Shown in pieces: positions 15,105 through 36,986 of a DNA stretch of 54,294 nt; the stretch's first letter is position 1, and each line of letters opens with the position of its first letter. The notes under the pieces are model-generated. The model did no database searches. It saw nothing but the letters and a program-made list of their open reading frames with translations, and was not told the origin of the DNA. The stretch spans positions 1 to 54,294 of the forward strand of contig DFHZ01000026.1 in NCBI GenBank assembly GCA_002371985.1, written 5' to 3'. The position numbers were made by a program, and so were the translations under genes. This stretch comes from Ruminococcaceae bacterium UBA3710. Its GTDB lineage: Bacteria; Bacillota; Clostridia; Oscillospirales; Acutalibacteraceae.

Positions 15105-15557
15105 TTAAAATCGTATTTTCGCAATGTTTATAATTCTTTTTCCCTGCTTTTCTGCCTTTTCGACCATTTGTCCTGCCCCTCCTAAATGGTGATAGGCATA
15201 ACAAACAACTATGTCGGACTGTTTTAGCATCCATTCGTTTCGCCATACTATTCCAAATCTTCTCGGGACTTTTTCAAGACCGTTAGGAAAAACGGTTTCT
15301 TCAGGCTCAACAAAACAAAAATTATCGGTACTTTTAGGCATATAGGCGAGTACAACCCTATAATCTATATGCGAAAACTCTTCTTTCATTTCACGAAGAA
15401 CTTTAATAACCATATAATCAAAATGTCCGTGATTGCCGACATAAAAACGGCTGACATTTTCGTTTTCTATTAAAGAGCGAATTTGCTGACGAAGATTATC
15501 CATTATTTCTTCTTTTGCATCGTGATGCCCGAAAAAGCAACAAACGGTTTCTTTCAA
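15105..15557 (-). CDS. SLOG/DUF1273-like small protein behind a structured leader
   Basis: This 150-aa protein begins with the Rossmann-type opening KETVCCFFGHHD (compare TCCFTGHRP in YpsA/DUF1273 relatives). It continues with FYVGNHGHFDYMV and ends in the segment VVCYAYHHLGGAGQMVEKA. These features place it near the SLOG nucleotide-binding superfamily, by recognition only. I choose TTG at 15557, preceded by GGGG at 8-11 nt. The longer reading (to 15689) would run through the terminator hairpin at 15572-15600 and the structured RNA, so it is rejected. No promoter lies between that terminator and the gene, so expression should depend on read-through. Function is unknown. Confidence 0.72.
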   Translation of the reverse strand: MKETVCCFFGHHDAKEEIMDNLRQQIRSLIENENVSRFYVGNHGHFDYMVIKVLREMKEEFSHIDYRVVLAYMPKSTDNFCFVEPEETVFPNGLEKVPRRFGIVWRNEWMLKQSDIVVCYAYHHLGGAGQMVEKAEKQGKRIINIAKIRF

Positions 15558-34501: not shown

Positions 34502-34939
34502 TTATTTTACAGGTTGTGCATTATTATTTTTATAACAATCACTGCAAACAGCACGATAACGCGTCCCTAAATTATCTACAATTTTTACATCAGAAATCTC
34601 AACATTTTCTTTTCCGCATAATTCACATTTTCCGATTTTTTCAGCAGAAATTTCTGTTGTTTTTTCTTCGTTTGTTCTATCCTTAAAAATTTGGTCTTGT
34701 GTTTCACATACATTATTGGCTAATTTATCACTGTTTTCTATCAGTTGACCATATCCATAAAGTATCCATGACGAAATCCATGCAAGAATAGGACCTATTA
34801 GCATAACAGATAATCCTGCAGCGATTAAATATTCATTGACTGATAATATAACTATACCAACAATAAAATCAATAATTGCTAACACTATAAATTGTATCTT
34901 TGCTAATGCCTTTATTTTTCTTCCAATGTTATTAAACAT
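34502..34939 (-). CDS. Small two-TM protein with C-terminal zinc ribbon, unknown
   Basis: This 145-aa protein has two adjacent hydrophobic segments (about 17-36, VLAIIDFIVGIVILSVNEYL, and 40-64), a charged linker, and a C-terminal CELCGKEN...CSDCYKN pair of CxxC motifs (about 109-135) that should bind zinc. No known family. GGAAGGAGG is 7 nt before the ATG. The gene begins 20 nt after the terminator of structured RNA 2 and has no other visible promoter. Together with that RNA it is bracketed by direct repeats, like an inserted cassette. Confidence 0.75.
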   Translation of the reverse strand: MFNNIGRKIKALAKIQFIVLAIIDFIVGIVILSVNEYLIAAGLSVMLIGPILAWISSWILYGYGQLIENSDKLANNVCETQDQIFKDRTNEEKTTEISAEKIGKCELCGKENVEISDVKIVDNLGTRYRAVCSDCYKNNNAQPVK

Positions 34940-34958: not shown

Positions 34959-34987
34959 AAAAAAGTGCGCAGCCGAAGCTACGCACT
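34959..34987 (-). terminator. Intrinsic terminator of structured RNA 2
   Basis: AGTGCGTAGC pairs with GCTGCGCACT around a UUCG loop, with six Us. It ends 20 nt before the ATG of the downstream gene. Confidence 0.9.
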
Positions 34988-35121
34988 GAAAAATGCACAA
35001 CTCCGATTGCTGCGACACAAGTTTTCAACAGATTCTAAGAGAATGTGAAAACAGAGAGTGCATTTTTACCAAAAGATAAAAATACTCCCTTAAAATCTGC
35101 TTTTATTAACTTGTGTCGCAA
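34959..35121 (-). ncRNA. Structured RNA copy 2 (candidate attenuator leader or 6S-like RNA)
   Basis: Starts a few bases after a near-consensus promoter. The closing stem is GCGACACAAGTT with AACTTGTGTCGC, the second stem AGATTTTAAG with CTTAGAATCT, and the apical hairpin GAGTATTTTTA with TAAAAATGCACTC. The tail is GCAATCGGAG onward with a UUCG terminator. AAAAATGCAC in the apical 3' arm (35058-35067) is a perfect 10-nt complement of GTGCATTTTT in the tail (34989-34998). Same design as the RNA at 15572-15721 with different sequences in the paired arms. Confidence 0.75.
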
Positions 35122-35125
35122 GTTT

Positions 35126-35174: not shown

Positions 35175-35253
35175 AATGAATAATGAATAAAGAATAATTA
35201 AAAAAGAATAATACAAACAAAAAATCCTACCACAAAAGTGATAGGATTTTTTA
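35175..35253. repeat. Direct repeat copy B with terminator hairpin
   Basis: AATGAATAATGAATAA, a 17-bp variant filler, then AATACAAACAAAAAATCC and the hairpin AAAATCCTA/TAGGATTTT (35221-35229 with 35242-35250). It matches copy A at 34397-34453. Confidence 0.8.
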
Positions 35254-35303
35254 TAATATAATGAAATTTAACGGCTTCGGGGGAAAACTTTAAAATACAT
35301 AAA

Positions 35304-35329
35304 AGCCCGACCCGGAAATGGGTCAGGCT
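35304..35329 (-). terminator. Terminator after tRNA-Pro
   Basis: AGCCTGACCC pairs with GGGTCGGGCT (one mismatch) and is followed by TTTTATG on the minus strand; it lies 8 nt after the tRNA 3' end. Confidence 0.75.
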
Positions 35330-35336
35330 CTGCCTG

Positions 35337-35412
35337 TGGTCGAGGTGACAGGGTTCGAACCTGCGGCATCCAGTTCCCAAAACTGGCGCGCTACCAACTG
35401 CGCTACACCTCG
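35337..35412 (-). tRNA. tRNA-Pro (anticodon TGG)
   Basis: A full cloverleaf can be drawn. The acceptor stem is CGAGGTG/CACCTCG. The D-arm is GCGCAGTTGGTAGCGC. The anticodon stem CCAGT/ACTGG has loop TTTGGGA, so the anticodon is TGG. The T-arm carries GGTTCGAACC. Discriminator A and an encoded CCA follow (35337-35339). No clear sigma-A promoter was found just upstream. Confidence 0.95.
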
Positions 35413-35651: not shown

Positions 35652-36986
35652 ATGGCTGATAATTCTTTAGATGGAATATGGAATGCAGTTTGCGACGAAT
35701 GTAAAAAAACCATTTCTGAAGTTGCTTTTGCATGTTTTTTTAAAGATTTAAGACCACTTTACATAGATGCAGGAAGTTTTGTTATTGCTCATAATAACGA
35801 ATATATGTGTTCTGTTATAGAGCAAAACTATTTAGGACTTTTATCTTCTGCAATAAAAAAGATAATGGGGATAGATTTAATTCCTAAAATTGTTTATGAG
35901 GAAGAGGAAGAAAAAATAAGAAATGCAGAACTTCACAGTGAAGGACTTACTTTTGAAGATTTCTTTTCTTTTGATAATTTTATTGTCGGATCATCAAACA
36001 GATTTGCTCAAGCGGCGGCTTTTGCAGTAGCCGAAAACCCCGGTCTTATAAATTATAACCCTCTTGTTATTTACGGTCCGTCAGGTGTCGGTAAAACTCA
36101 CCTTATGCTTGCAATAAAAAATCATATAAAGAAAAAATTTCCAAGCAAAAAGATTGAATATACAAGAGGAGAAGATTTTACAAATCAACTTATTCAGGCT
36201 CTTCAAGAAGGAAAATTGGGACTTGGGACTATAGACGATTTTCGTTCTAAATTCAGAAATGTTGATATTCTTTTAATTGACGATATTCATTTTATTGCCG
36301 GAAAAGAACAAACACAGGAAGAATTTTTTAATACTTTTAATGCTCTTTATCAGAATAACAAGCAAATTGTAGTAACGCTTGACAGACCTTTAAGAGAAAT
36401 TAAAACTCTTGACGACCGAATCCGCTCCCGTTTTGCAAGCGGTCTTTTTGCTGACATAAATCCACCCGATTTTGAAACAAGAGTAGGAATAATAAAAAAG
36501 AAGGCAGAACAAAGCGGATTTACTCTTGACGAAAATATAGTATATTATATTGCCGAACATATAAAAGTTAATACAAGACAAATAGAAGGCGTTATTAAGA
36601 AACTTCAGGCTTACATAAACATACAAAACAAAAATCCTAATATTTCTATTGTTCAAGGCTTTATAAAAGATGTTATAAACGATTCTCAACCCGAGCCTAT
36701 AAAAATAGAAAAGATTATTGCCGAAGTTGCAAGAACTTATAATGTTTCAGAAAGCGATATTCTATCTAACAGAAGAACTGCTTCTTTAGTTCTTGCCCGT
36801 CAGGTTGCTATGTATATTGCAAGAGAAACAACAGAAATGTCCTATAAAATGATTGGTGAAAATTTTGGAAAAGACCATTCAACCGTTCTTTATAATGTAA
36901 ACAAAATAGAAGAATTTTTAAAGGACAAGCCTTACGAAAAAGAATTGGTAGAAGATATAATCAAAAATTTAAAAAGTAACACTTAA
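35652..36986 (+). CDS. dnaA: Chromosomal replication initiator DnaA
   Basis: This 444-aa AAA+ initiator binds DnaA boxes and opens oriC. Domain I covers about residues 1-85, followed by a short linker. The AAA+ domain III starts near 110 (FDNFIVGSSNRFAQAAA), with Walker A GPSGVGKTHLML and Walker B ILLIDDIHFIAGKEQTQEEF. Domain IV carries the DNA-binding helix with GKDHSTVLYNV near the end. GGGGTG is 7 nt before the ATG. Length is normal (440-460). Confidence 0.98.
   Translation: MADNSLDGIWNAVCDECKKTISEVAFACFFKDLRPLYIDAGSFVIAHNNEYMCSVIEQNYLGLLSSAIKKIMGIDLIPKIVYEEEEEKIRNAELHSEGLTFEDFFSFDNFIVGSSNRFAQAAAFAVAENPGLINYNPLVIYGPSGVGKTHLMLAIKNHIKKKFPSKKIEYTRGEDFTNQLIQALQEGKLGLGTIDDFRSKFRNVDILLIDDIHFIAGKEQTQEEFFNTFNALYQNNKQIVVTLDRPLREIKTLDDRIRSRFASGLFADINPPDFETRVGIIKKKAEQSGFTLDENIVYYIAEHIKVNTRQIEGVIKKLQAYINIQNKNPNISIVQGFIKDVINDSQPEPIKIEKIIAEVARTYNVSESDILSNRRTASLVLARQVAMYIARETTEMSYKMIGENFGKDHSTVLYNVNKIEEFLKDKPYEKELVEDIIKNLKSNT

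Follow-up and report, generated by a model that had tools for sequence, protein, structure and literature searches.

A probable riboswitch-like transcription attenuator, equipped with a promoter of its own, ahead of unrelated genes in gut and rumen Clostridia

The decision whether to transcribe a gene can be taken within the leader of its own transcript, and several such systems are well described. The fluoride and ZTP riboswitches are transcription-terminating and possess a pseudoknotted aptamer, while the T-box leaders, common in Firmicutes, are built around a terminator and an antiterminator. The c-di-GMP riboswitches, comprising GEMM and c-di-GMP-II, occur in many copies per genome, some of them before genes for secreted or surface proteins. 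A survey of 2017 is said to have reported 224 candidate RNAs. One question then is how far an RNA found twice in a single contig of Ruminococcaceae bacterium UBA3710 resembles these systems. In the analysis described below, in which the window denotes the whole stretch of 54,294 nucleotides, we come to the view that this RNA is probably a cis-acting, riboswitch-like transcription attenuator, which would carry its own promoter and serve as a plug-in before unrelated genes, sometimes in tandem.

Both copies in the window, termed here A and B, lie on the minus strand. Matches were scored with R1, a model made from 26 aligned homologues including both window copies, and covariation was assessed in part on A3, an alignment whose model held only the closing stem P1 and the terminator, and neither the pseudoknot nor the antiterminator. 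The features are as follows.

35154-35126, minus: sigma70-type promoter of copy B, TTGCTA-17-TATAAT, read in the sequence
35125-35115, minus: start of copy B RNA, AAACTTGCGAC, read in the sequence
35121-34959, minus: leader RNA of copy B, running from P1 through the U-tract, from the R1 match and the fold
35108-35121, minus: P1 5' strand, UUGCGACACAAGUU, from fold, annotation and covariation on A3
35085-35100, minus: P2 5' strand, its alternative partner being the strand just after the apical A-run (hairpin H), from own-versus-swapped comparison
35058-35067, minus: apical strand AAAAAUGCAC, putative 5' partner of the pseudoknot, from covariation
35027-35041, minus: P2 3' (distal) strand, from fold and own-versus-swapped comparison
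35010-35023, minus: P1 3' strand, AACUUGUGUCGCAG, ending in GTCGCA, from fold, annotation and A3
34995-35005, minus: putative antiterminator strand CGGAGUUGUGC, sharing 4 nt with the pseudoknot strand and forming 11 bp with 34984-34974, from covariation and fold
34989-34998, minus: tail strand GUGCAUUUUU, putative 3' partner of the pseudoknot, from covariation
34974-34984, minus: terminator 5' arm and loop, GCGUAGCUUCG, partner of the antiterminator, from covariation
34959-34987, minus: intrinsic terminator AGUGCGUAGC-UUCG-GCUGCGCACU with U-tract, read and annotated
34502-34939, minus: gene of a 145-aa membrane/zinc-ribbon-like protein, ATG at 34939, 19 nt past the U-tract, an open reading frame
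15754-15726, minus: promoter of copy A, TTGCAA-17-TAAAAT, read in the sequence
15724-15573, minus: copy A of the RNA, read in the sequence; R1 E 2.2e-12, copy A being part of the R1 model
15105-15557, minus: gene of a 150-aa YpsA/SLOG-like protein behind copy A, likely with a TTG start, from a PF06908 match

A sequence-only reading of copy B had described a promoter, a start, a long closing stem, a UUCG terminator and a gene, all of which are present on the minus strand. It was right, too, in giving both copies the same promoter spacing (17 nt, with the hexamers TTGCAA/TAAAAT in A and TTGCTA/TATAAT in B) and the same 17-nt gap from GTCGCA to TTTTTC. The start that it called the same is near-identical, copy A (AAACCTGCGAC) differing from copy B (AAACTTGCGAC) by one mismatch, and taken by itself this 11-mer does not reach significance (3 matches with at most one mismatch against 1.20 expected). 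Similarly, the UUCG terminator does stand directly ahead of the gene, at a distance of 19 nt instead of the 20 claimed, and the description of the product as a membrane/zinc-ribbon protein agrees with the hydrophobic segments and the C-terminal Cys cluster recognisable by eye; the match to DUF7685 (25 bits) falls under the 27-bit cut-off. The product behind copy A likewise matches PF06908 at 26 bits, under a cut-off of 27.7 bits. Copy B itself, which forms part of the R1 model, is matched at 34959-35124 with an E value of 1.1e-26, and its fold (-68.2 kcal/mol, z -8.6 against 200 shuffles) is far from chance.

The surroundings of copy B deserve a separate remark. Its divergent neighbour (window 35652-36986) resembles dnaA by eye, which may place copy B close to the replication origin. 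Copies B and C are both situated downstream of tRNA genes and of a terminator-like hairpin that is near-identical in the two, AATCCTACCAC...GTGATAGGATT; the regions concerned, 35218-35412 of the window and about 1750-2007 of the fetched locus L003, may thus have a common origin.

The search for further copies in related genomes, which the sequence-only reading had proposed, yielded many, mostly with the terminator ahead of a gene. The source genome holds four full copies by R1 and one partial copy at a contig edge. Matches occur in 54 of the 61 genomes of the genus (E <= 0.01) and, at order level, in 50 of 147 genomes and 38 of the 85 genera of the sample (E <= 0.001), with up to 14 matches per genome in the genus sample (G007) and 16 in the order sample (G492); across the phylum only one genome of 299, the source genome, gave a match in a search that scored few candidates per genome and that weak relatives could therefore escape. 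A pattern of tail and terminator recovered 45 stretches of named genomes, all of them metagenome-assembled, whose titles name Clostridia, Clostridiales, Clostridiaceae, Oscillospiraceae, Ruminococcaceae or Ruminococcus, and whose sample sources include many guts of sheep, goat, deer or buffalo and one sample of horse faeces. Altogether 203 unique copies were gathered, 193 with a perfect terminator according to the script. The first set began with 106 matches and came to 101 after removal of one partial match, one reverse-strand row and duplicates; 97 of these have a perfect terminator and 92 also the apical motif. The second set, fetched after the pairing idea had been written down and largely unseen before, began with 105 matches, of which three were identical to earlier sequences; the remaining 102, less one in A1, six lacking a perfect terminator and 15 lacking the apical motif, left 80. 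The pooled pseudoknot tests use 173 of the 203 copies, the others having no terminator or apical motif as defined, and a non-redundant set comprises 31 of the 173, no two being 70% or more identical over 110 nt.

Is this, then, a diverged member of a known family such as the c-di-GMP riboswitches, 6S, raiA or the T-box? The multiplicity of copies within a genome, some of which precede genes for surface proteins, recalls the c-di-GMP riboswitches. Yet when the window and 20 loci were scanned against Rfam 15, no family attained its gathering score on the RNA, although tRNAs and one THF riboswitch, and nothing else, were detected, and permissive RNA-family searches with both window copies produced no credible match. 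Moreover, the GGDEF domain was matched in 20 of the 61 genus genomes and in none of the other 41, as against 54 with R1 matches; it gave no match in the source genome (G000, 87% complete), nor in G007, G019, G025, G078 and G082, incomplete genomes which carry 8 to 14 RNA matches. Since GGDEF gave no match in several genomes rich in the RNA, c-di-GMP is unlikely to be the ligand. Membership of any of these known families appears extremely improbable. We take the RNA to be a new family, built, to judge from its predicted pairings, like a transcription-attenuating riboswitch and matching no Rfam 15 family. Among the papers listed by a literature search, and in the look-ups made in PMC11109978 and PMC8632094, no such RNA was found, which does not establish its absence from print. 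The THF riboswitch of the scan lies at 1759-1858 of L033, on the opposite strand and close to an RNA copy.

The order of elements in the family is promoter, long P1/P2 stem, apical GGUAAAAAYGC strand, tail, terminator, Shine-Dalgarno sequence and gene. The RNA has a median length of 167 nt and P1 a median of 15 bp, the tail measures 20-25 nt (5th to 95th percentile), and the terminator hairpin has a median of -16.3 kcal/mol. On A3, P1 and the terminator covary strongly, all seven modelled pairs of P1 being changed on both sides and 98.9% of the cells of the terminator helix being paired, in an alignment that was fitted to both. A promoter-like site lies just 5' of P1 in 172 of 191 copies, compared with 73 of 555 shifted controls, and its spacer is 17 nt in 158 of those 172. 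As regards a possible leader peptide, the one recurring AUG is inside AAAAAUGC, present in 106 of 173 copies. In a longer variant of 201-217 nt (L025, L030, L032, L035) the apical GGYAAAA is preceded by an extra arm, and GCAAAUUCCA follows the apical strand.

At its 3' end the RNA is mostly followed by a gene. Of the 198 copies whose downstream flank extends to 130 nt or more, 147 have a start codon with an SD-like site at most 40 nt past the terminator (the rule asking for an SD-like sequence, a start codon and an open reading frame of at least 35 codons), compared with 35 of 157 non-family terminators of the same loci, a rough control because the loci had been selected on account of the RNA or its best matches. 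Together with the frequency of the promoter-like site, this gives most copies the arrangement of a transcription attenuator, in which promoter, leader and terminator immediately precede the gene. Relatives lacking a terminator ahead of a gene, or standing alone only, had been named by the sequence-only reading as evidence that would count against it; most copies do not conform to that picture, and 25 of the 198 have no gene within 130 nt by the script's rule, five of these being followed by another RNA copy at most 49 nt downstream. These 25, along with the frequent absence of the RNA from homologous genes, count against an attenuator. The 25 copies could also be accommodated if the family consisted of stand-alone small RNAs ending at the terminator, with neighbouring genes read by leakage, a notion with which the abundance of promoter-like sites, the strong terminators and the tandem arrays described below also agree; the proximity to genes in 147 copies against 35 of the controls, and a covarying antiterminator with no obvious use in such an RNA, make it unlikely.

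What follows the probable attenuator is diverse. The 167 downstream proteins fall into 86 BLAST clusters, the largest (23 proteins, 12 shown) consisting mostly of leucine-rich-repeat surface proteins and lipoproteins, followed by small Cys-containing proteins (11), MFNNIG-type and related membrane proteins including the product of copy B (9), AMP-binding enzymes (6), tiny MPDYK-type proteins (6) and HTH proteins (5). Pfam, run on 141 of the 167, gave LRR_5 in 15, AMP-binding in 6, HTH_3 in 6 and SHOCT in 4, and by crude sequence rules 73 of the 167 have a hydrophobic N-terminus and 32 a lipobox. The small Cys-containing protein, of 59-69 aa, stands behind 11 copies (L048, L050, L071, L106, L115, L131 and others); the member from L048, the sole one scanned singly, has no Pfam match. 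Conversely, homologues of the linked genes often occur without the RNA: for the copy B protein the RNA lies ahead of 6 of the 30 best-per-genome homologues and of 4 of the 9 closest, leaving 24 of 30 loci without it, and for the SLOG protein, matched in 47 genomes, ahead of 3 of the 30 fetched, leaving 27 without. A strict tie of the RNA to one gene family is thus rejected, and the linkage between RNA and gene is optional. The diversity of clusters, set beside the gene proximity, supports the proposal of the sequence-only reading that a cis-regulator is reused before different genes, as far as can be judged from the sequences compared. A related possibility, which we regard as a serious if rather doubtful one, is that the attenuator answers to a protein or a trans-acting RNA instead of a small molecule, the fold serving as a binding platform; outputs with no evident shared pathway point to no single metabolite, and an optional linkage would suit a global factor, but the complex fold and its conserved apical and joining bases would suit a small-ligand aptamer too.

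The core of the argument concerns the tail between P1 and the terminator, whose commonest form is CGGAGUUAUGCGUUUUUC. The reading that preceded this analysis missed the apparent mechanism, namely that the predicted antiterminator strand doubles as a pseudoknot strand. The tail has two covarying partners: the apical AAAAAYGCAU strand, with which it would form the pseudoknot, and the terminator 5' arm and loop, GCGUGGCUUCG, with which it would form the antiterminator. When each copy's own partners were compared with partners swapped between copies, the pseudoknot in the first set (n=92) averaged -9.76 kcal/mol against -7.57 (z -11.7), the own partner being better than the median swapped one in 78 copies and worse in 11, and the antiterminator -13.75 against -12.11 kcal/mol (z -7.4), better in 52 of the 92 copies and worse in 28. 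In the second set (n=80) the values were z -13.0 and -11.2 (0/2000 each), and in the non-redundant set (n=31) -8.4 and -7.9. By contrast with these, the tail showed no such preference for the terminator 3' arm (z 0.6, -0.8 and 0.3 in the first, second and non-redundant sets), nor did the apical strand for the terminator arm (0.2, -0.4 and 0.3). Mild deviations in other pairings concerned the P1 5' strand and the arm (up to -2.9), the P2 5' strand and the arm (-2.6, 154 copies), and the P1 3' strand and the terminator 3' arm (-2.1, first set), the P1 3' strand giving 1.8 with the terminator arm in the same set. The P1 5' strand as main antiterminator against the terminator 5' arm was rejected, its z of -2.1 in the first set becoming 0.0 within terminator type, with -2.9 in the second set and -1.8 in the non-redundant one. 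A U-A-U triple helix of apical U-run, A-run and tail was set aside, because the apical U-run is absent from some copies.

At the level of single pairs, the three pseudoknot pairs that come first after the A-run are standard in 99, 98 and 98% of 173 copies, against 77, 79 and 82% after shuffling, with up to six pair types, and the next three in 86, 72 and 61% against 67, 51 and 55%. The antiterminator could be placed without gaps in 142 of the 173 copies; two central pairs covary clearly (91 versus 77% and 87 versus 70% shuffled), one modestly (81 versus 71%), and the others lie at most 5 points above shuffled. On A3 the covariation score was 0.248 against 0.143 shuffled for the pseudoknot and 0.309 against 0.247 for the antiterminator (0/500 in both), and the share of paired cells was likewise above the shuffles for both (0/500 each), while on A3 the count of pairs with both partners altered did not exceed them (pseudoknot 88/500, antiterminator 205/500).

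When 193 copies were folded from P1 to the U-tract, with pseudoknots disallowed, 101 formed the terminator, 91 the antiterminator and one neither of them, whereas after shuffling each tail once all 193 formed the terminator and none the antiterminator. Natural tails are accordingly poised near balance, and uptake of the tail into the pseudoknot should favour termination. Barring the ten pseudoknot bases of the tail from pairing gave the terminator in 193 of 193, a check of logic and no independent evidence, because the same bases serve the antiterminator. The minimum free energy fold of copy B shows the antiterminator unprompted; copy A has a weak one (-7.5 kcal/mol) and folds to the terminator in either case. 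Both the swapping and the folding tests thus point to an antiterminator that is mutually exclusive with the terminator. There is a further pair of alternatives upstream. In a test excluding the long variant (162 copies under 185 nt, 154 used), the P2 5' strand matched its distal partner with z -54 and the strand right after the apical A-run with z -12.8, compared with -0.1 for the tail. The second of these pairings, hairpin H, would remove the apical strand and so compete with the pseudoknot, and the choices between P2 and hairpin H, at the pseudoknot and at the terminator may be coupled.

From mutual exclusion and covariation, which are properties of the sequences themselves, we infer regulation, a direction and a signal as follows. 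In the OFF state the tail would be held in the pseudoknot and the terminator would form; in the ON state the tail would pair with the terminator 5' arm and loop as antiterminator, and the gene would be read. The two states would exclude one another because the tail bases overlap and the terminator 5' arm is shared. A signal sensed by the P1-P2-apical domain, be it a metabolite, an ion, a protein or an RNA, would decide whether the pseudoknot forms, most likely by stabilising it and thereby turning the gene off.

Tandem copies, each with a promoter, are neither needed nor explained by a plain attenuator. Among the fetched loci, L047 contains four copies with gaps of 49 nt, L226 three with gaps of 40 and 42, and L050 and L213 two each, with gaps of 47 and 107; in L218 and L234 the pairs are looser, one of the two members being partial or weak. 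The arrays run head-to-tail, and promoter-like sequence was read between the copies in L047, L050 and L226. An origin in phages or plasmids was rejected: one pattern of the RNA had 0 matches in viral_contigs, plasmid sequences gave no match to the RNA, and two phage-labelled records matched. One of them, L306 (MT835845.1), labelled Bacteriophage sp., looks bacterial chromosomal by eye, with ClpC-like and YicC-like open reading frames, and bears an RNA copy ahead of a lipoprotein-like gene. The other, L307 (MT837627.1, 1070-4775), an unannotated faecal record, has a copy before a zinc-ribbon protein and, by eye, an integrase-like open reading frame, so that the module may be carried by an integrative element. 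That copy, the many copies per genome and their unrelated neighbours might suggest a mobile promoter-like repeat spread by insertion, devoid of a regulatory fold and with helices that are remnants of inverted repeats; that the copies have diverged, and that P1, pseudoknot, antiterminator and terminator each show changes matched between their strands, renders this very unlikely.

We would go one step beyond the probable attenuator, albeit tentatively and with slightly more doubt than conviction, and propose a portable class of sensor: a self-contained module of promoter, aptamer, pseudoknot and terminator, single or in tandem before unrelated genes, which would place surface, small-protein and regulator genes across the genome under one signal by way of a series of either-or pairings: between P2 and hairpin H, between pseudoknot and antiterminator, and between antiterminator and terminator. 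The RNA would then be a regulatory family outside Rfam 15, yet one present in 50 of the 147 sampled genomes of the order, and it would point to a signal common to many genes, as yet little characterised, of gut and rumen bacteria, towards which the pseudoknot and antiterminator pairings offer a concrete handle. A switch with its own promoter, optional before any given gene, would show how regulons may be rewired by moving RNA modules.

How does the family compare with the known systems? A weak match to the freshwater-2 RNA (RF02980; 19.2 bits, E 1.2) covers the tail, the terminator and the start codon, far under the gathering score of 49.9 bits and leaving the P1-P2-apical part uncovered. With the c-di-GMP riboswitches the RNA shares its multiplicity within a genome and the placing of some copies ahead of genes for secreted or surface proteins, but it differs in having no Rfam match and in that 41 of 61 genus genomes give no GGDEF match. 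With the T-box it shares the terminator/antiterminator leader, but again it has no Rfam match, its putative antiterminator strand is shared with a pseudoknot, and none of its leading gene clusters consists of amino-acid genes. The likeness to the fluoride and ZTP riboswitches is that of a leader pseudoknot which, immediately before a gene, would settle whether a terminator or its alternative forms; from these the RNA is set apart by the lack of an Rfam match, by its unrelated outputs, by the attached promoter-like site of 172 of 191 copies, and by its tandem arrays.
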